Assembly: GCF_014195445.1 (NCBI RefSeq)
Contig: NZ_JACIBT010000001.1
Span: 310,001-374,000, forward strand
Direction of reading: 5' to 3'
Length of the DNA: 64,000 bases
DNA from: Garicola koreensis
Lineage (GTDB): Bacteria; Actinomycetota; Actinomycetes; Actinomycetales; Micrococcaceae
The notes under the pieces were generated by a model. It was not told the origin of the DNA and ran no database searches. It was given only the letters and a program-made list of their open reading frames with translations. The translations under genes were made by a program, and so were the position numbers. This document shows, piece by piece, positions 7,419 to 43,646 of the stretch. How positions within the stretch are numbered: position 1 is the first letter of the stretch; each line of letters opens with the position of its first letter.

Positions 7419-8507
7419 ATGGGATTAGCCCAGACAGAGAAGTATCTGAAGCGGCACAACATCAAAGCGGGCCTGACCAGCACGCTGATTGCTGACCGCG
7501 CGCTGGCCCGGGGGATTGAGGTCTTTCCCGATGCGCAGCGGCGCCTCACTATGAAGGTCGGCGGCAGATACGTCTGGTTCGACGGATCCCTCTCAAATAT
7601 CAACAGCGTGCTGGCCAGACGCTGCGTGCGCTACAAAGACGTCACCAGCCGGCTGCTGCAGAACTACGACATCAACGCTGCGACCAACGTTGCCTTCTCC
7701 CGGGATCAGCTGCACCAGGCGTGGGCCTGGGCGGAGGCGGAGATGCCGGTGGTGGTCAAACCACCCAATGACGGTATGGGAGACGAGGTCCATGTGGGGA
7801 TTTCGGACTTCGCTGAGTTCCAGCGGGCCTTCGCTGCGGTGGGCGCACTGTCGGAATCGGTGCTGGTGGAGCGGTTCATCCCCGGGGTCGAACATCGTGT
7901 GCTGCTCATCCACGGCAAGGTCGCCGCTGCTGCCAGGCGCATCCCGGCCCACGTCGTCGGTGATGGGGTCTCCACGATCGCAGAGCTGGTGGAGCAGAAG
8001 AACAGACTGCGCACAGAGTCGGCCAATCCCGTGCATTTCCAAATCCCCGTCGACGACGTCGTCGTGCGCGAGCTGGCCAAGCAGAGCTTCGCCCTGGGCT
8101 CGGTGCCCGCCGAGAATGAACGCGCCTGGCTGCGGCCCAACTCCAACGTCCACAGCGGCGGCGACGGGGTGGACGCCACCGATGAGCTCCGGCCCGAGGA
8201 GGTCGAGATGGCGGAGCAGACCGCCAAGGCGATCCCTGGACTGCGCATAGCGGGGTTGGACCTGCTGCTCCCACGAGACGGGCAGGGATCTGCCCCGCAT
8301 GTGTTGGAGATCAACGGAACGCCTATGATCACCGGGCACCACTACCCCTGGTACGGGCAGAGCCGCGACGTGGCCGCAATGCTGGTCGAGTCCATGTTCG
8401 GCAAAGAGTCGGACCGACGACCCAGGCCTCCGGAAAAGCCCCGCTCACGAGCGTCCCGGCAGCTGCGGCAACGACTGCGTCCGCTGCGGCCGCTGTTCCG
8501 CCGCTGA
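7419..8507 (+). CDS. ATP-grasp domain protein, cyanophycin-synthetase/GshAB-like
   Basis: A 362-residue protein built almost only of an ATP-grasp ligase fold. Visible elements: the lysine strand PVVVKPPNDGMGDEVHVG; the second ATP-contact strand VLVERFIPGVEHRVLLI; VVGDGVSTIAELVEQKN, typical of cyanophycin synthetase and glutamate-cysteine ligase/GshAB-type ATP-grasps; and the metal-binding end LEINGTPMITGHHYPWYGQ. The basic C-terminal tail (RPRPPEKPRSRASRQLRQR onward) may bind nucleic acid or membrane. A ribosome-binding site (AGGGGA) lies 8 bases before the ATG. It is orphan: no Mur-ligase-like half or partner gene is adjacent. It should form an acyl-phosphate-activated peptide or amide bond; substrates are unknown. 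Confidence 0.75.
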   Translation: MGLAQTEKYLKRHNIKAGLTSTLIADRALARGIEVFPDAQRRLTMKVGGRYVWFDGSLSNINSVLARRCVRYKDVTSRLLQNYDINAATNVAFSRDQLHQAWAWAEAEMPVVVKPPNDGMGDEVHVGISDFAEFQRAFAAVGALSESVLVERFIPGVEHRVLLIHGKVAAAARRIPAHVVGDGVSTIAELVEQKNRLRTESANPVHFQIPVDDVVVRELAKQSFALGSVPAENERAWLRPNSNVHSGGDGVDATDELRPEEVEMAEQTAKAIPGLRIAGLDLLLPRDGQGSAPHVLEINGTPMITGHHYPWYGQSRDVAAMLVESMFGKESDRRPRPPEKPRSRASRQLRQRLRPLRPLFRR

Positions 8508-8571
8508 AACGTATGGTGGCGGCGACCCTCGATGCGCGTCATCTCAATGATCTGGTGGCTTGAAACGGGAA

Positions 8572-8611
8572 GACGCGCGCAGAAGCAGTGAGGAGGGCTT
8601 CTGCGCGCGTC
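8572..8611. terminator. Perfect 15-bp stem hairpin, probable bidirectional terminator
   Basis: The arms GACGCGCGCAGAAGC (8572-8586) and GCTTCTGCGCGCGTC (8597-8611) are perfectly complementary around a 10-base loop. It sits between the ends of the ATP-grasp gene and the convergent permease operon. There is no long T run on either side, so termination is inferred from stem strength and position. The rest of the gap to 8779 is AT-richer and shows no gene. Confidence 0.6.
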
Positions 8612-8779
8612 ACGCTTCCCATCGCGCACCTTCTATTAGAACACGTCTTCTATGGTTCATCAACCATCAGTTTCACCAAATAGAATATGTGTTCGATGTG
8701 ACTTTCCTGTCAGAAACCTATGAGAACGGACATTCGATCCCAGCCGTGCAACGAGGTGGCTGACACCGTCATGAGTCCC

Positions 8780-10585
8780 TTACTCAGTGTCCGGTACCTT
8801 CACCGCCTTGGAGTCGCCGCGACGAACGGCCAGATAGCCGGCGGCCGCCAGACCGATCAGCAGGATCAGCAGGGTCGCCGTGCCGAAGTTCAGGCCGAAG
8901 CCATTGATGGCCAGGAACGCGACCGACCCGGCAGCGATGCAGTAGTAGAGAGCGACCCACACTGTTTTGCGGATGATGTCGCCTTCGCGGTTGAGCAGGC
9001 CGACTGTTGCCGAAGCAGCCACAATGTTGTGGATGGTGATCGTGTTGCCGCCGGCTCCGCCCGCCGCCTGGGCGGCTGTGACGGTCTCCGGTGAGACGCC
9101 GATGGTGTTGGCCGTGGACCACTGGAACTGCGAGAACGTCAGATTGGACACAGTGTTGGACCCGGCGATGAATGCTCCCAGGGCGCCGACGAAGGGGGCG
9201 AAGAACGGCCACGTCTCTCCCGCCACAGACGAGGCGGCCTGAGCCAGGAGCACGGGCATGGATTCCATTCCCGACTCATTGATGCCGGATTGGATCAGCA
9301 CACGCACCATGGGCACGGCGAACAGCAGAGCCACGGCGGTGCCGAAGATCTGACGGCCAGCGATCTTCCACGTCTGTGCCATCTGCTTAGCTGACATGCG
9401 ATAGATCAGGTAGCCCATCGCTGAGGTGAGGATCAGGATGAAGCCGGGGGAGAAGAACACATCAATCGAGGTGCTGATCCCCTCGACCCCCAGAATGTCG
9501 GAAATCTGCACCTGTGTGAGGCCCGGAGTGGTGAGGAACTCATTGAGCCCCTCCCACACGCGGGTCAGCACCAGCAGAGCGGCCATGATCACATAGGGTG
9601 TCCAGGCGCGCACCAGGGTGATCTTGTGCGGCTCGTTGGGGTCGCGCGGCTCGCCGGGGGCGATGCGACCCATCCAGCGCTGCTCCCAGGCTGCCCGGGG
9701 GCCGAAGTCGAAGGTCTCCTTGGGCATCAGGAAGCCCTTGGAGGAGGTGAACATGACCAGGGTCAGACCCACCAGGCCGCCGATCAGTGAGGGGAACTCC
9801 GGGCCCAGCAGCCAGGCCACCAGGACCGAGGGCACCGTCATCGACAGCGCGGCGTAGATCGCGAAGGGCCAGACCTTCAGCCCCAGAGCGAAGTTGCGCT
9901 TCTGACCGAAGAAGCCGGTGAGGAAGCAGGCCAACAGCAGTGGAATGAGGATGCCGACTGCCAAGTGGAACAGAGCGGTCTGCAGGCCGATGTTGGCAAT
10001 ATACTCCGAATAGGTCATGCCCAGTTCACTGAGTCGGTCCTGCATCGCTGGGGAGTTCTGGTTCAAACCGTCGCCGACGCCGACGAGGATGGGCGTTCCG
10101 ACCGCGCCGTAGCTCACCGGTGAGGACTGGATGATCAGGCCCACCACCACCGCGGCCATGGCGGGGAAGCCCATCGCCAGCAGCAGCGGTGCGACGACGG
10201 CCGCTGGGGTGCCGAAGCCCGAAGCACCCTCGATGAAGCTTCCAAACAGCCAGCCGATGATGATGGCCTGAATGCGGCGGTCGGGGGAAATATAGTTGAA
10301 ACCGGCCTGAATGCGTTCCATCGCGCCAGAGACGGTCACTGTCGACAGCAGCAGAAGGGCGCCGAAGACGATGTAGAGCAGAGTGCCCGCGACAATCAGC
10401 CCCTCCAAGGAGGCTGCCGCCAGCGCAACGGGCTGCATCTGCCAGGTTGCCCAGGCAATGATGATGGCAGTCAAATAGCTCAGCGGCATGGCGTATTTTG
10501 CCGGCCATCGGAAGCCGGCAAGCAGAATACCGGCGACCAGGATCGGCGCTAGGGCCAACATACTTAGGACAAACTGGTTATCCAC
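8780..10585 (-). CDS. lctP: L-lactate/glycolate permease (LctP family)
   Basis: A 601-residue integral membrane protein of the lactate permease family, importing lactate and often glycolate by proton symport. It is hydrophobic nearly throughout, with about 12-14 predicted helices. Family segments are clear: FGSFIEGASGFGTPAAVVAP, PVSYGAVGTPILVGV, and near the end IAGSNTVSNLTFSQFQ and AAQAAGGAGGNTITIHNIVA. The start is GTG at 10585, after GGAAGGAC. It is the last gene of the minus-strand operon of oxidase, GlcG-like protein, EtfBA and cytochrome b, which points to uptake of the oxidase's substrate. Confidence 0.92.
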   Translation of the reverse strand: MDNQFVLSMLALAPILVAGILLAGFRWPAKYAMPLSYLTAIIIAWATWQMQPVALAAASLEGLIVAGTLLYIVFGALLLLSTVTVSGAMERIQAGFNYISPDRRIQAIIIGWLFGSFIEGASGFGTPAAVVAPLLLAMGFPAMAAVVVGLIIQSSPVSYGAVGTPILVGVGDGLNQNSPAMQDRLSELGMTYSEYIANIGLQTALFHLAVGILIPLLLACFLTGFFGQKRNFALGLKVWPFAIYAALSMTVPSVLVAWLLGPEFPSLIGGLVGLTLVMFTSSKGFLMPKETFDFGPRAAWEQRWMGRIAPGEPRDPNEPHKITLVRAWTPYVIMAALLVLTRVWEGLNEFLTTPGLTQVQISDILGVEGISTSIDVFFSPGFILILTSAMGYLIYRMSAKQMAQTWKIAGRQIFGTAVALLFAVPMVRVLIQSGINESGMESMPVLLAQAASSVAGETWPFFAPFVGALGAFIAGSNTVSNLTFSQFQWSTANTIGVSPETVTAAQAAGGAGGNTITIHNIVAASATVGLLNREGDIIRKTVWVALYYCIAAGSVAFLAINGFGLNFGTATLLILLIGLAAAGYLAVRRGDSKAVKVPDTE

Positions 10586-10664
10586 GTCGATAACGTCCTT
10601 CCGGTTGGTGCCCGGCAGGGGCCTTCGGTGCGGTGATCTTATCTTCAGCTGTCACTTCATTCAC
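10578..10664 (-). CDS. Possible 28-residue coupling ORF between cytochrome b and permease genes
   Basis: This frame starts with a GTG whose last two bases overlap the stop codon of the cytochrome b gene (GTGA) and ends 8 bases inside the permease gene, crossing the permease's Shine-Dalgarno. The product would begin [18 protein letters not shown]. It fills the whole 75-bp spacer, so it may couple translation of the permease to the cytochrome. No family is recognised and it may be chance. Confidence 0.35.
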   Translation of the reverse strand: MNEVTAEDKITAPKAPAGHQPEGRYRRG

Positions 10665-12067
10665 CGTCCAACGCGTCCGAAGAGGGAGGCGATGGGTGCT
10701 ACGAAGAGTGCTCGTGCGAGGAACGCGCCGGCGACGATGACTGCCAGGGAGAGGGCGAAGAGCCAGAACCCTGTCCAGTTCTGTGTCTCGTCGCCGGTGT
10801 AGATCTGGTTGAGGTTGGCCAAAGCGTCTGTGGCGAAGACGAGGATCAGGTGGACCAGGATGAAGACGGTGAAGTAGATCATCACTGGGAAGTGGACGGC
10901 GCGTGCCAGTTCTACGGGGAAGAGCTTGTTGAGGGCCTGGTTGTTCGCTGGCCAGAGCCCGGACATGCGCAGCCCGGTGAGGATCGCCAGCGGTGCGGCG
11001 ATGAAGATGGTGGTGAAGTAGGCCAGTTCCTGCAGGCTGTTGTAGTGGGCCCACTCCCCGACAGTGGGCCAGTCCAGGGAGACGTACTGCAGTCCGGCGG
11101 AGAGGGCGTTGGGGAAGATCTCCCAGCTGGTGGGCACCACCCGCTGCCAGTAGCCGGTGGCGAGCAGCAGGACCACAAAGATGACGCCGTTGAGCACCCA
11201 GAGCAGGTCCAGCGCGTTGTGCAGCCAGATGGTCAGGCTGATCTTGCGCTTCTTGTTCCACTTCGGGGTCCAGTAGGCGGCCGGGCGAGCCTCGGTGCGG
11301 ATCTGGATGCCGGTCTTGATGACCAGCACCATCAGAAACGCGTTGAAGAAGTGCGCCCAGTTCAACCACCAGGGATAACCGCCCGGGGCCTCCGGCTGGG
11401 AGTACTGGCCCGGGTAGCGCTCCACGAAACCTGCGACAGTCTCAGTGTCGAGCAGCCACCGGGTGAGCAGCACTGCCACAGCGGCCACCACAATGATGGC
11501 AACCACGCCGATGCCGCCCTGGACCGCCCATTGTCTGCCGGTGCGATTGAGGAAGGTCTTCTGCGCAGGCTGGGTCTTCGGCGGTTTGGGTGTGGTGTGC
11601 TCGGCCGCACCGGTCTTGGCCTCAGCCGGGGTCGGGGAGGAGCTGTCCTGCACTGGGGCCGACCTGGGATCCTGACTTCGGAGCCCAGATCCGCTTCCTA
11701 ACCCCGACCTGCGCGGAGCGGGCTCCGAGGTTTGACCCGTGGGGGGGCGGCCGGCAGGCTGCTGCGGCTGCTGGGCCGGCTGTTCACCCATACCCATGCG
11801 ACGTCGAGCTGGTTGCTGCGGCGCTGATTGGACTGGGTCTAGTTGCTCTGGTTGCTGGGCCTGTTGAGCCATGCCGGTGCGACGGGCCCGGTTGTTCATG
11901 CCCGTGCGGCGAGCCGGCGGGTTTGCGGCGGTCTCCTCGGGCGTGTCTGCGGCAGTGTCCGCAGGGTTCGGGGCAGGCTCATCGTGGGTCTGCTGCTCTG
12001 GGGGCTGCTGTTCCTCGGGGGTGCGGGGCAGGCCTCTGCGGCGTCGTGGTGGTCGTTCAGGAGCCAC
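10661..12067 (-). CDS. Di-heme-type cytochrome b membrane subunit with proline-rich N-terminus
   Basis: A 468-residue protein in two parts. Residues 1-175 are Pro/Gln/Arg-rich, disordered, and carry recurring ARRTGM-like motifs at about 52, 61, 88 and 119. Residues 183-460 form six hydrophobic helices resembling the formate dehydrogenase gamma/cytochrome b561 superfamily. Candidate heme-ligand histidines sit in or beside helices at H239, H283, H341, H392 and H406. The ATG overlaps the end of etfA by 11 bp, so translation is coupled. I infer that it takes electrons from the Etf and passes them to menaquinone; that function is not established for this family. Confidence 0.7.
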
Positions 12068-13043
12068 CGCCGGCGCGCTCCTTCAGCCGTGTGATCAGCT
12101 GGGGGACCACATCGAAGGCATCACCGACGATGCCGAAGTCGGCGATGTCGAAGATGGGCGCCTCGGGGTCCTTATTGATGGCCACGATCGTCTTAGCCGA
12201 CTGCATGCCCGCTTGGTGCTGCACTGCCCCGGAGATGCCCAGGGCGATGTAGAGATCGGCAGAGACGGTGACCCCGGTCTGGCCCACCTGGTAGGAATTC
12301 GGCGCGTAGCCGGCATCCACTGCGGCCCGGGAGGCGCCCAGGCCGCCCCCCAGCTCATCGGCGAGCTGCTCTGCCAAGGCGAAGCCCTCGGCAGAGCCCA
12401 GTCCCCGTCCGCCGGAGACCACTGTGGCCGCGCTGCGCAGATCCGGGCGCGTCGACGCCTGCAGGTTCTCGCTGAACCCGGTGATCTCAGCCGCCGCGGA
12501 CCCGGCCTCAGGGACCTCCAGCGTCTCCACTGTCGGCTCAGCCGCTTGGGCGCGCTCATCGACCGCACCCTCGCGCAGGGTCACGATCAGGGTGCCGTGG
12601 GTCGGGGCAGACTCGGTGGTGTAGGCGCTGCCATAGACCGAGTGGTGGACCACGTTGCCCTCAGCATCACGAGCAATGCCCACCGCATCAGCAGCCACGG
12701 CCGCCGGAAGCCGCACCGCCAACCGGCCGGCAATGTCACGGCCATCAACATCGTTGGGTACCAGCACCGCCTCAGCGCCGGTGGCACCCACCGCAGCGGC
12801 CACAGCCTCCAACGCCGGGGCGGTCAGCACTGACTGCGTCTGGGGCGTCTCAGCGAGGTAAACCCGCTGGGCCCCAAACGTGCCGGCAGCCGCAGCCGCG
12901 GCCTGACCCTGGCCCGGTGCGGCCACAATGACCGCCACCGGCGAACCGAGGCGCCCAGCAGCGCCCAGCAGCCCGGCAGCGCTGCCCACCAGTTCACCAT
13001 TGGGCAGAACCGGCAGAAACGTCACCACATTGTTCTCAGCCAT
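12057..13043 (-). CDS. etfA: Electron transfer flavoprotein alpha subunit
   Basis: A 328-residue EtfA. The N-terminal half is the pseudo-AMP-binding-type fold shared with EtfB. The C-terminal FAD domain is intact: [20 protein letters not shown], then [18 protein letters not shown] and [19 protein letters not shown]. There is no N-terminal ferredoxin domain, so it differs from the EtfA of the electron-confurcating lactate dehydrogenase of Acetobacterium. It lies 2 bp after etfB and overlaps the cytochrome b start. It would pass electrons from the oxidase encoded at 14248-15660. Confidence 0.95.
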
Positions 13044-13045
13044 TC

Positions 13046-13819
13046 TCAGACCAGCCTCTTCTCCGCCAAATAATCAGCCAGCTGGGTGCCAGCCTCACCT
13101 TCATCAGTGACCTTCGTACCAGCAGTGCGTGCCGGGGCCTGGGTGACCGAAAGCATAATCGAGCGCGGCACATCAGCCTGGGCATCAACGCCCAGATCCG
13201 CCGCGGTCAGGGTCTCCAGGGGCTTCTTCTTCGCCGACATGATCCCCTTGAACCCGGGGAACCGAGGATCCGGCATCCGTTCGGTGACCGAGACCACCGC
13301 CGGCAGATCAGCCCGCAGACTCACCGTGCCGCCATAGGTGCCACGCTCACCGCTGACCTCAGTCTCACTGATCTGGGCCGAGTCCAAACTCGTCAAGTGC
13401 GCCACACCCAGCCGCTGCGCCAGCATGGTCGGCAGCAGCCCACCGGTGCCATCGGAGGACACATCACCGGCGATCACCAGATCAAACCCGATACGCCTCA
13501 GCGCTGCGGCCAACACCTCAGCGCTCAGCCCCAAATCAGCACCAGTAAGCGCCTCATCACTGATGTGGCAGGCACTATCAGCACCCATCGCCAGAGTCTT
13601 ACGCAACATAGACTCCGCAGACTCCGGACCCATAGTCACCAACACCACCTCGGCGTCCTGCGCAGAATCGGCATAGGAGACCGCAGCCTCCACCGCACGA
13701 GCCGTGATCTCATCAATCACCCGATCACTGGCCCCACGATCAGCCAACCCGGTCGTCGTATCAAGCTTGCGCTCCCCATAACTGTCGGGAACCTCTTTCA
13801 CCAACACAGCAATCTTCAT
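13046..13819 (-). CDS. etfB: Electron transfer flavoprotein beta subunit
   Basis: A 257-residue EtfB with the family's opening [15 protein letters not shown] and the conserved region [20 protein letters not shown] that in EtfB contacts AMP or a second FAD. The C-terminal [20 protein letters not shown] stretch is typical of the family. The ATG overlaps the stop of the GlcG/HbpS-like gene by one base (TGATG). With EtfA it forms the soluble heterodimer of this operon. Whether the second cofactor is AMP (non-bifurcating) or FAD cannot be settled by eye. Confidence 0.95.
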
Positions 13820-14238
13820 CAGAGGGCCTTTCCTCCCAAGGCTTCAAGCACAGCAGCAGCAACTTCGGCGTCCTGAGCAGGCGGGCCCCCGGCCACACCG
13901 AGTCCGCCGACCACTACGCCGTCGAAGACCAGGGGTACGCCCCCGGGAATCCGTGTCAGCAGTGTACCGGTGCCGTTCTCCATGGCCGGTGCCAGTTCTC
14001 CTGGCATGTCTGCGCTGGGCTTTCGGGTTGAGGCCGCAGTGTTGGCCTTGCGCTTGGAGGTCTCCACGCTGTGGGCCGTCATGCCGTCGGCGCGGCCGAA
14101 GGCCACCAGGTTCAGCCCGGGGTCCACCACGGTGGCGCAGAGATTGAGGCCGCGCTCTGCGCCGATGCTGAGGGTCAGTCGCACTGCCTCGGCAGCAGTT
14201 TCGTAGGCGATTGTCGCCACGTTGATGTATGCAGTCAT
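13819..14238 (-). CDS. GlcG/HbpS-family protein
   Basis: A 139-residue protein of the GlcG/HbpS (DUF336) family: NVATIAYETAAEAVRLTLSI, NLCATVVDPGLNLVAFGRADG, TRIPGGVPLVFDGVVVGGLG and the closing VAGGPPAQDAEVAAAVLEAL. Family members bind heme or corrinoid-like ligands or are uncharacterised partners in glycolate (glc) operons. The gene sits 9 bp after the FAD oxidase gene with AAGGAGA ahead of its ATG, and overlaps etfB by one base. The context supports an accessory role in 2-hydroxyacid oxidation. The exact role is unknown. Confidence 0.85.
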   Translation of the reverse strand: MTAYINVATIAYETAAEAVRLTLSIGAERGLNLCATVVDPGLNLVAFGRADGMTAHSVETSKRKANTAASTRKPSADMPGELAPAMENGTGTLLTRIPGGVPLVFDGVVVGGLGVAGGPPAQDAEVAAAVLEALGGKAL

Positions 14239-14247
14239 CAGGTCTCC

Positions 14248-15660
14248 TTAGCCGGTAGCGTTCAGCGCGGCCGGATCCAGCACAGCGCCTGGGTTGAAGA
14301 TATTGTGCGGGTCCAACGCCATCTTAATCCGATGGTTGAGGTCCAGGGCGTCCTCACCGATGTAGTCGCTGAGCCAGGGGCGCTTGAGCCGGCCCACACC
14401 ATGTTCGCCGGTGATCGTGCCGCCCAGGGCGATCGCTAAGTCCATCACCTCACCGTAGGCGGTGTGCGCGCGTTGCTTCTGATCCTCATCGGCGGGGTCG
14501 AACACCAGCAGCGGGTGGGTGTTGCCGTCACCGGCATGGGCGAGCACCGCAATGACGACGTCGTGGTTCTGTGAGATCTCTGCCATTCCGCGCACCAGGT
14601 CACCCAGGCGGGGCAGCGGCACCCCGACGTCCTCCAGCAGGATGGAGCCCTTCTGCTCCACGGCCGGGATGGCCATCCGGCGGGCGACGACGAACGCTTC
14701 CCCCTCTTCGGCGTCAGTGGTGTAGAAGACCTCGGTGGCGTTGTTCTCATTGCACAGCGCCTCGATCTCTTCGATCTCTTTGGCGGCGTACTCCGCCGGC
14801 TCGTCGGACTGGATCACCAGCATCGCCGCCGCCTCGCGGTCCAGGCCCATCTTGGTGGTGTCCTCCACGGCGTTGATGGTGGGCTTGTCCATAAACTCCA
14901 GCATCGAGGGGCGCCACTGGGAGGAGATCGCCAGAATCGCCTCGGTCGAATCCTCCAGTGTGGCGAAGGTGGCCACCAGTGTGGTCGGCGGCCGCTGGGA
15001 GGGGACCAGGCGCAGCGTGATCTCGGTGATCACCCCCAGTGTCCCCTCACTGCCGACGAACAGCTTGGTCAGATCCAGTCCGGCCACATCCTTCAGTCGC
15101 GGCCCACCCAGCTCCACTGCCCGGCCGTCGGCCAGCACCACGGTCATGCCCAGCACGTAGTCGGTAGTCACCCCGTACTTCACGCAGCACAGGCCCCCGG
15201 CGTTGGTGGCGATGTTGCCGCCGATGGAGCAGAACTCGAACGACGACGGGTCCGGCGGGTACCACAGGTCGTGCTCTGCGGCGGCGGCCTTGACCTCAGC
15301 GTTGAACGCGCCGGGCTGGACCACTGCGGTGCGGGTCAGCGGTTCGACCTGGATATCGCGCATCTTCTCCATGGAGAGCACGATCCCACCCTCGACGGCC
15401 GTGCTGCCGCCGGAGAGCCCGGAACCGGCCCCGCGCGGGACCACCGGCAGCCCACGGGCGGCCGCGAAGCGTACCGCAGCCTGGACATCTTCGGTGCTGG
15501 TGGCACGCACCACCGCAGCAGGGGTGCCGGCATCCGGGTCGTTGGCACGGTCCCAGCGGTAGTTCTCGATGGTGGCCGGATCAGTGACGACGCTGCCCGC
15601 GCCCAGGGCATCGATCAGCTCCTGGAGCTGGGGCGCATCGGTAGTGGGGGTCTGCGTCAA
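14248..15660 (-). CDS. FAD-linked 2-hydroxyacid dehydrogenase (GlcD/D-lactate dehydrogenase type)
   Basis: A 470-residue flavoprotein of the vanillyl-alcohol-oxidase fold. The FAD-binding PCMH part has VVPRGAGSGLSGGSTAVEGG and SIGGNIATNAGGLCCVKYGVTT; the C-terminal part has VLAHAGDGNTHPLL and ITGEHGVGRLKRPWL. I place the start at TTG 15660, after GAGAGG, since this gives the family's usual length; the frame stays open to 15912 but that extension is low-complexity and crosses the divergent pheS promoter region. The likely substrate is D-lactate or glycolate. It is the first gene of the operon ending in the permease. No GlcE or GlcF is encoded nearby, so the neighbouring Etf is the likely acceptor. 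Confidence 0.88.
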   Translation of the reverse strand: MTQTPTTDAPQLQELIDALGAGSVVTDPATIENYRWDRANDPDAGTPAAVVRATSTEDVQAAVRFAAARGLPVVPRGAGSGLSGGSTAVEGGIVLSMEKMRDIQVEPLTRTAVVQPGAFNAEVKAAAAEHDLWYPPDPSSFEFCSIGGNIATNAGGLCCVKYGVTTDYVLGMTVVLADGRAVELGGPRLKDVAGLDLTKLFVGSEGTLGVITEITLRLVPSQRPPTTLVATFATLEDSTEAILAISSQWRPSMLEFMDKPTINAVEDTTKMGLDREAAAMLVIQSDEPAEYAAKEIEEIEALCNENNATEVFYTTDAEEGEAFVVARRMAIPAVEQKGSILLEDVGVPLPRLGDLVRGMAEISQNHDVVIAVLAHAGDGNTHPLLVFDPADEDQKQRAHTAYGEVMDLAIALGGTITGEHGVGRLKRPWLSDYIGEDALDLNHRIKMALDPHNIFNPGAVLDPAALNATG

Positions 15661-16979
<1,319 letters not shown>

Positions 16980-38302: not shown

Positions 38303-43256
<4,954 letters not shown>

Positions 43257-43527
43257 ACCATCCAAGCCCACCAGGGTTATGAGACAAGAATTGGTGAGTA
43301 TGCTCGCGTCCACTAGGCGGTCCCCAGACCACAAACCCCACACACGTTTACACGTACAGGGAACACGTATAAACACCAGGTTTAAACACCAGGTATAAAC
43401 ACATAGTGCAACACCACTGATAAAACATGACAATTAAGACATGACAGTGATGGACACGTAATAGATTTCCAACCCCCTGCCGGGCAGCAGTCACTGACTG
43501 GCTCACACAGGTGCGGGTTGGGTCAGA
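43257..43527 (+). other. 23S-5S spacer with processing arm and tandem repeat
   Basis: A 271-base spacer with no gene. Bases 43300-43314 pair with the 16S-23S spacer to enclose the 23S. Three 13-base tandem units, TATAAACACCAGG, TTTAAACACCAGG and TATAAACACATAG, fill 43368-43406. The stretch is AT-richer than the surrounding sequence. Confidence 0.7.
43368..43406 (+). repeat. Three 13-bp tandem repeats in the 23S-5S spacer
   Basis: Units at 43368-43380, 43381-43393 and 43394-43406 share the consensus TWTAAACACCAGG; the third diverges in its last four bases. The count is likely variable between rRNA copies. Confidence 0.75.
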
Positions 43528-43646
43528 GTTACGGTGGTCATAGCGTGGGGGAAACGCCCGGTCCCATCCCGAACCCGGAAGCTAAGACCCACAGCGCCGA
43601 TGGTACTGCACCCGAGAGAGTGTGGGAGAGTAGGACACCGCCGGAC
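43528..43646 (+). rRNA. rrf: 5S ribosomal RNA
   Basis: About 119 bases beginning GTTACGGTGGTCATAGCG and containing CGGTCCCATCCCGAACCCGG and the 3' region GAGAGTAGGACACCGCCGGAC. It is third in the operon, with a terminator 14 bases later. Confidence 0.95.

Follow-up and report, generated by a model that had tools for sequence, protein, structure and literature searches.

We describe a candidate route for feeding electrons into the respiratory chain, encoded in a 64,000-nucleotide stretch of Garicola koreensis DNA (contig NZ_JACIBT010000001.1, positions 310,001 to 374,000; this whole stretch is hereafter the window), where the genes for the two subunits of an electron transfer flavoprotein (ETF), EtfB and EtfA, are followed by a gene for a cytochrome b with a long N-terminal arm. 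It is likely that EtfB, EtfA and this cytochrome b constitute a conserved module conveying the electrons of flavin adenine dinucleotide (FAD) dehydrogenases to menaquinone, the quinone of actinobacteria, in replacement of the membrane protein EtfD, and that in the window the module stands behind a GlcD-type dehydrogenase and a permease. Through it the cytochrome probably delivers electrons to the respiratory chain from fatty acids or from acids of the lactate type, along a path that has not yet been described. What has probably been discovered is an EtfBA-cytochrome b module that is portable and brings its own tether, and that is a candidate for a third way of moving electrons from ETF to menaquinone.

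Conservation of the EtfB-EtfA-cytochrome b unit

A search of named genomes with a profile of 28 cytochrome cores yielded at least 588 relatives, and the nearest 80 loci were analyzed. EtfB and EtfA lie upstream of the core, in the same order and on the same strand, in 73 of these loci, with 101 to 1428 bases separating the EtfA match from the core; among the remaining seven, four start no more than 400 bp from the core, one is cut inside EtfA and two (L112 and L121) present no EtfBA in 10 kb. GlcD and GlcG occur upstream in eight loci, five from Nesterenkonia and three from Cryobacterium, six of which also carry LctP downstream on the same strand, and GlcG separates GlcD from EtfB in all eight as well as in the window. 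GlcD is absent from 65 of the 73 linked loci. The conserved unit is EtfB-EtfA-cytochrome b, not a lactate operon. An earlier sequence-only reading of this DNA had joined the six genes of the cluster into one self-contained lactate chain and had proposed a cluster search across actinobacteria as a check; the search bears out the association of EtfB, EtfA and cytochrome (73/80) but not that of GlcD (8/80), and we have dropped the self-contained chain because relatives often keep the module without GlcD.

The same pattern is apparent within the genus Nesterenkonia, where a higher-scoring EtfA (114-122 bits against PF00766) is found in exactly 9 of 30 genomes, namely those with a strong cytochrome match (E-value cut of 1e-60, set after the list of matches was known), and on the same contig as the cytochrome. 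All six genes are present in six of the eight readable strong-cytochrome genomes of the Nesterenkonia group (the window, L303, L305, L306, L307 and L054), the other two (G001 and G009, loci L302 and L304) retain EtfBA and cytochrome without GlcD, and the ninth genome is cut by a contig end. In an EtfA tree of 76 rows, built from alternate named linked loci together with selected others, 42 of the 43 cytochrome-linked rows, including that of the window, form a single clade with support 100/97, in which the rows nearest to the window are from Nesterenkonia. The one linked EtfA outside the clade (L141) has 28% of its columns filled, and its placement is uncertain.

The dehydrogenase of the window has as its best PDB matches an entry named "Glycolate oxidase" (9qgz, 1.3e-119) and then the LctD protein of Acetobacterium (7qh2, 7e-71). 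A canonical GlcDEF glycolate oxidase was ruled out, since the protein scores 414.7 bits against the GlcD equivalog TIGR00387, under the cut-off of 567.9, the cluster holds neither GlcE nor GlcF, as had been read previously and as its genes attest, and no match to the CCG domain (PF02754), which we take to be that of GlcF, was found in the window's genome (80% complete; no genome-wide search for GlcE was made). By family, the yeast dehydrogenase Dld2 is presumably a relative of GlcD. The polar residues of the LctD substrate site (R328, E344, D346, H377, H384, E422 and H423; PMC9232219) align with R327, E343, D344, H375, H382, E419 and H420 of the window protein, in which LctD Tyr386 and Leu332 are replaced by Leu and Ile. 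Delivery of electrons from a GlcD-type enzyme to a plain ETF is not in itself the novelty here, because it is already known for Dld2, a 2-hydroxyacid dehydrogenase (PMC6771786).

These neighborhoods also lend themselves to a different account, in which the module serves acyl-CoA oxidation as its ETF:quinone route. GlcD, GlcG and LctP would then be passengers that are co-transcribed with it, and the electrons of the 2-hydroxyacid would pass directly to quinone or oxygen. Genes for an acyl-CoA dehydrogenase or an enoyl-CoA hydratase occur in 49 of the 65 linked loci lacking GlcD (an acyl-CoA dehydrogenase in 37), ending no more than 4 kb upstream of EtfB in 30 of them, with the identity of these gene clusters checked on one or two members each; the two Nesterenkonia genomes that hold the module without GlcD point the same way, as does the window ETF being the only one detected in its genome, weakly so because the genome is 80% complete. 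We nonetheless regard passenger status as unlikely: the identical order GlcD-GlcG-EtfB-EtfA-cytochrome recurs in Nesterenkonia and Cryobacterium, members of two families, the gaps at window junctions do not exceed 9 nt as far as the cytochrome, the acyl-CoA dehydrogenase cluster is present in none of the eight GlcD loci, and yeast Dld2 does donate electrons to ETF (PMC6771786).

The repeat-bearing arm and the distribution of ETF partners

A feature beyond the earlier account of this cluster is the arm of about 175 residues at the N-terminus of the cytochrome, which in the window carries one RRRRGLPR and four more copies of RR-(x)-G-(L/M). Across linked cytochromes, the arm occupies the stretch from the EtfA stop to the core, its start being taken by script as the start codon closest to the EtfA end. 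It is of low complexity, has a median length of 256.5 residues and most commonly repeats RRGLPRxxGGEPWPPA. Of the 74 linked arms, with that of the window counted, 71 contain GLPR, 67 of them in at least two copies and 52 in at least three. Its density, 198 copies in 18,324 arm residues versus 23 in 428,923 residues of the other open reading frames in the same loci, is set against a background that is if anything too high, because six cytochrome loci fall outside the excluded cluster and a few arms were perhaps included; shuffling leaves a mean of 0.79 copies. None of the eight unlinked cytochromes with readable upstream sequence carries GLPR (L112, L121 and L142-L147, the latter picked from 20 stretches, with L145 counted as unlinked though an EtfBA pair lies about 7 kb away). 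A linked cytochrome from another family of the class (L137) bears the arm motif twice, within a 17-letter protein segment present in two copies, and other linked arms display other repeats, SRMG in L139 and QRMAGYTPLRG in L140.

Two of the unlinked proteins deserve separate mention. That of Corynebacterium hylobatis (L112) has an arm of 329 residues built of near-perfect VPAPGGAVPG repeats, with no RRGLPR and no EtfBA within 10 kb, and that of Microbacterium lacus (L121) keeps the core while both the arm motif and EtfBA (10 kb) are absent, and may amount to a natural experiment on the tether idea.

A disordered C-terminal region of about 30 kDa with conserved interspersed repeats has been reported for mycobacterial EtfD, and an AlphaFold3 model has ETF binding EtfD through it (PMC13083937). 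Ten of the 16 EtfD tails that we inspected contain repeats of the KGLxxxGAKxPG type (GGLKKPG in L228), two from another family (L224 and L225) have GGSLFD repeats in place of the KGLG ones, and four are shorter than 50 residues and free of repeats. Tethers of this repeat-bearing kind seem to have appeared repeatedly, on ETF partners that are not related to each other.

The distribution of membrane partners was surveyed in a sample of 394 genomes from the class. No match to PF05187, the domain of ETF:ubiquinone oxidoreductase (ETF-QO), was found in any of them or in the window cytochrome; the control search hit 3 of 14 named genomes. EtfD, searched with the protein of one genome, is present in 340 of the 394 and EtfA in 373. 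No EtfD was found in the 26 genomes with a strong cytochrome match, versus 340 of the 368 others; the 373 EtfA-bearing genomes divide into 337 with EtfD, 19 with a strong cytochrome, none with both and 17 with neither, and the 31 EtfA-bearing genomes of the order into 10, 18, none and 3. One strong bearer (G422) belongs to family f22, whose members give the 25 best EtfD matches, and EtfD was found in none of the 30 Nesterenkonia genomes at E 1e-10. The sequence-only reading had the cytochrome bypass the usual Etf-quinone oxidoreductase; that enzyme is not the usual one in this class, and the bypassed route is EtfD. Its proposal of transfer from Etf to a dedicated cytochrome b gains, as a proposal, from the joint retention of EtfBA and cytochrome, from their own EtfA clade and from the failure to find EtfD alongside a strong cytochrome. 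Distant homologues of the cytochrome (L130-L136 and others), with frames of about 590-740 residues, were observed in EtfD-bearing genomes, EtfBA not being adjacent in the seven stretches inspected.

The cytochrome might, instead of being a quinone reductase for ETF, belong to another respiratory complex, its arm binding a partner other than ETF. Short-armed members do occur in genomes without EtfA (7 of the 26 strong bearers) and away from EtfBA, and genomes that have EtfD contain distant homologues whose frames measure about 500-740 residues. Such a role is improbable, however, given that the arm motif tracks EtfBA linkage (71/74 versus 0/8) and that the EtfA clade tracks linkage to the cytochrome.

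Several observations weigh against an ETF:menaquinone module that replaces EtfD. Having been taken as the nearest among no fewer than 588 relatives, the 80 loci over-represent close kin; the strong-match cut postdates the list to which it is applied; and the mutual exclusion of EtfD and cytochrome is confounded by ancestry, because 24 of the 26 strong bearers fall in two families. Among EtfA-bearing genomes, 17 of 373 have neither partner (6 of the 17 are less than 90% complete), and 7 of the 26 strong-cytochrome genomes lack EtfA, so that some members of the family, apparently the short-armed ones, must do something else. A second EtfA (type B; loci L272-L292, L293-L296 and L299) is present in 28 of the 30 Nesterenkonia genomes, 20 of which also lack a strong cytochrome, and no evident membrane partner was seen among its neighbors in the loci inspected, by eye from sequence starts. 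The absence of EtfD alone is therefore no proof that the cytochrome is the ETF partner, and a general rule by which every ETF has either EtfD or this cytochrome was rejected, broken as it is by the 17 genomes and by the second Nesterenkonia ETF. Some linked cytochromes lack the arm motif: L129 and L141 are short-armed, L060 is apparently frame-shifted and L054 reads RRRGLPA/Q. The letters of the EtfD tail motif and of the arm motif bear only a loose resemblance, which we regard as suggestive. As for the core, the match of the window cytochrome to PF01292 is modest (36.8 bits for a cut-off of 30.1), its only confident fold match has an E-value of 0.14, and the profile of 28 cores returned no match among PDB sequences.

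Layout of the locus and proposed electron path

The six genes all lie on the minus strand with overlaps or short gaps (Table 1), as had been read from the letters, and follow one another in the order GlcD, GlcG, EtfB, EtfA, cytochrome and LctP with a gap of 9 nt, an overlap of 1, a gap of 2, an overlap of 11 (cytochrome start on EtfA stop) and a gap of 75. Their previous names stand, each being backed by a Pfam match above cut-off, if a modest one for the cytochrome, and so do the lack of a ferredoxin domain in EtfA, in which the ETF and ETF_alpha domains alone were matched, and the six-helix cytochrome b, the core model showing six helices of at least 19 residues. The GlcD start is an assumed TTG; its open frame extends to 15912, and the relative L055 begins at a similar place. 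The host genome measures 2.25 Mb. A scan of 8400-16000 for sigma-70 promoters and terminators gave no excess over shuffled sequence. Elsewhere in the window, a complete 16S-23S-5S ribosomal RNA operon at 38303-43646 (plus strand) accounts for a dip in GC content at 38-44 kb.

Table 1. Genes of the cluster and elements of the cytochrome, in window coordinates
Feature	Position	Strand	Basis
GlcD/D-2-hydroxyacid dehydrogenase-like FAD protein, 470 residues, TTG start assumed	14248..15660	-	PF01565 + PF02913
GlcG/HbpS-like protein, 139 residues	13819..14238	-	PF03928, 2.1e-26
EtfB, 257 residues, non-bifurcating type	13046..13819	-	PF01012; SDGTGGLLP at b-FAD motif site
EtfA, 328 residues, without ferredoxin domain	12057..13043	-	PF01012 + PF00766
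Cytochrome b with N-terminal arm, 468 residues, proposed ETF:menaquinone oxidoreductase	10661..12067	-	PF01292
Low-complexity Pro/Gln/Ala/Arg-rich arm, 175 residues, proposed ETF tether	11543..12067	-	
Arm motif 1, RRRRGLPR	12023..12046	-	
Arm motif 2, RRTGM	11897..11911	-	
Arm motif 3, RRTGM	11870..11884	-	
Arm motif 4, RRRMGM	11789..11806	-	
Arm motif 5, RRSGL	11699..11713	-	
Cytochrome b core, six predicted transmembrane helices, four invariant His, no conserved Cys	10664..11542	-	AlphaFold2 model, alignment, Foldseek
LctP-family lactate/glycolate permease, 601 residues	8780..10585	-	PF02652, 5.4e-108; TIGR00795 above cut-off

The b-FAD motif of bifurcating EtfB is DGDTAQVGP (PMC9232219), at whose position the window EtfB reads SDGTGGLLP. 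With canonical domains and no bifurcation motif, EtfAB is of the non-bifurcating type. P183 and F187 of EtfB, near-invariant among cytochrome-linked EtfB proteins, are placed in the recognition-loop region by comparison with the same source. A confurcating lactate dehydrogenase driving NAD reduction, on the model of Acetobacterium LctBCD, would have the same partners (a GlcD-type enzyme with EtfBA, LctD being the second-best PDB relative of GlcD), but the absence of DGDTAQVGP from all nine aligned EtfB proteins and of a ferredoxin domain from EtfA makes it very unlikely, in agreement with the non-confurcating Etf of the earlier reading.

Of the 28 core relatives, 27 match PF01292 at E 0.01. 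Four histidines (H64, H108, H217 and H231 in core numbering) are invariant in the 28 aligned rows, in which any Cys column is common to at most two. The AlphaFold2 model of the 293-residue core (pLDDT 88, pTM 0.81) was matched by Foldseek to FdnI of Escherichia coli formate dehydrogenase N (1kqf_C) with probability 1.00 and a TM score of 0.55 by target length, but an E-value of 0.14. The loop between helices 2 and 3 is basic, so that by the positive-inside rule the arm faces the cytoplasm, where ETF is. By topology, a heme held by H108 and H217 would lie near the cytoplasm and one held by H64 and H231 near the outside; since there is no conserved Cys, transfer from ETF flavin to heme would have to be direct. 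From such features we infer the number of hemes, the quinone site and the direction of electron flow.

In the path that we propose, LctP would import lactate, glycolate or a related 2-hydroxyacid, as its family suggests, and GlcD, with its conserved active-site residues, would oxidize the acid and reduce its own FAD. The non-bifurcating EtfAB, so typed by its motifs, would accept these electrons while held by the cytoplasmic arm, whose repeated and conserved R-R-x-G-(L/M) motifs may act as binding sites. Judging from sequence, transfer would then proceed from ETF to the cytochrome, with the ETF FAD reducing the inner heme (H108/H217) directly, and electrons would cross the membrane to the outer heme (H64/H231) and reach menaquinone. 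Two hemes across the membrane and no Fe-S relay could let the membrane potential push uphill transfer from acyl-CoA donors, an argument already made for EMO of Syntrophus, a diheme/Fe-S protein (PMC8805022).

With less confidence, though still leaning towards it, we propose that the cytochrome represents a third class of ETF:menaquinone oxidoreductase, free of Fe-S and unrelated to the others. Present in Micrococcales and, outside that order, in at least one genome, it would be a bare diheme cytochrome b that uses a multivalent disordered arm to fish its own ETF. This arm would have evolved separately from, and in parallel to, the repeat tail of EtfD, making multivalent tethering of ETF a general device in actinobacteria, and through the membrane-spanning hemes the proton motive force would drive the oxidation of acyl-CoA or 2-hydroxyacids with menaquinone. 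No description of an EtfBA-linked stand-alone cytochrome b or of its arm was found in open-access titles and abstract openings among the matches listed, which is no proof of its being unpublished.

Significance and comparison with known systems

In the order, 21 of the 31 sampled EtfA-bearing genomes have neither ETF-QO nor EtfD, and 18 of these 21 carry the cytochrome. The module would explain menaquinone-based oxidation of acyl-CoA or 2-hydroxyacids in Microbacterium, Agromyces and Nesterenkonia, allows the role of the EtfD repeat tail to be tested against a partner that is not related to EtfD, and provides an annotation rule, which is to look for a cytochrome b that is encoded just after etfBA and has an arm with RRGLPR.

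The membrane proteins described as taking electrons from ETF to quinone are, in the portions of the literature available to us, of two unrelated kinds, ETF-QO and the EtfD/EMO group. ETF-QO has the same proposed job and differs by its PF05187 domain. The Hdr-like group of mycobacterial EtfD, Syntrophus EMO, FadF and DgcB likewise has the proposed job of passing electrons from ETF to menaquinone and has membrane heme b, and its genes are linked to those of ETF in some genomes, as is the window cytochrome; mycobacterial EtfD also has a long disordered extension with repeats, C-terminal rather than N-terminal (PMC13083937). Unlike EtfD and EMO, the window cytochrome has no CCG domain, ferredoxin domain or conserved Cys, and in none of the 26 genomes with a strong cytochrome was EtfD found as well.

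On the side of the donor, lactate dehydrogenase/EtfAB couples of other bacteria are presented as bifurcating systems, with no such cytochrome in the extracts available (PMC9751042, PMC6085437). LctBCD of Acetobacterium woodii likewise pairs a GlcD-type dehydrogenase with its own EtfBA, from which the window differs by a non-bifurcating EtfB, an EtfA without ferredoxin domain and an added membrane cytochrome. The cytochrome b subunits FdnI and HydC belong to the same PF01292 family, with a fold that may be like that of FdnI, and the two His of the window cytochrome lying 14 residues apart on one helix are presumably spaced as in FdnI. In contrast to these subunits, the window cytochrome has an extra N-terminal helix and the arm, and its donor would be a cytoplasmic flavoprotein instead of a periplasmic Fe-S subunit. 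A parallel to the donor step is that of yeast, where a 2-hydroxyacid dehydrogenase, Dld2, similarly passes its electrons to a plain ETF, and where the next step is expected to be Cir2p, a quinone-dependent dehydrogenase (PMC6771786).

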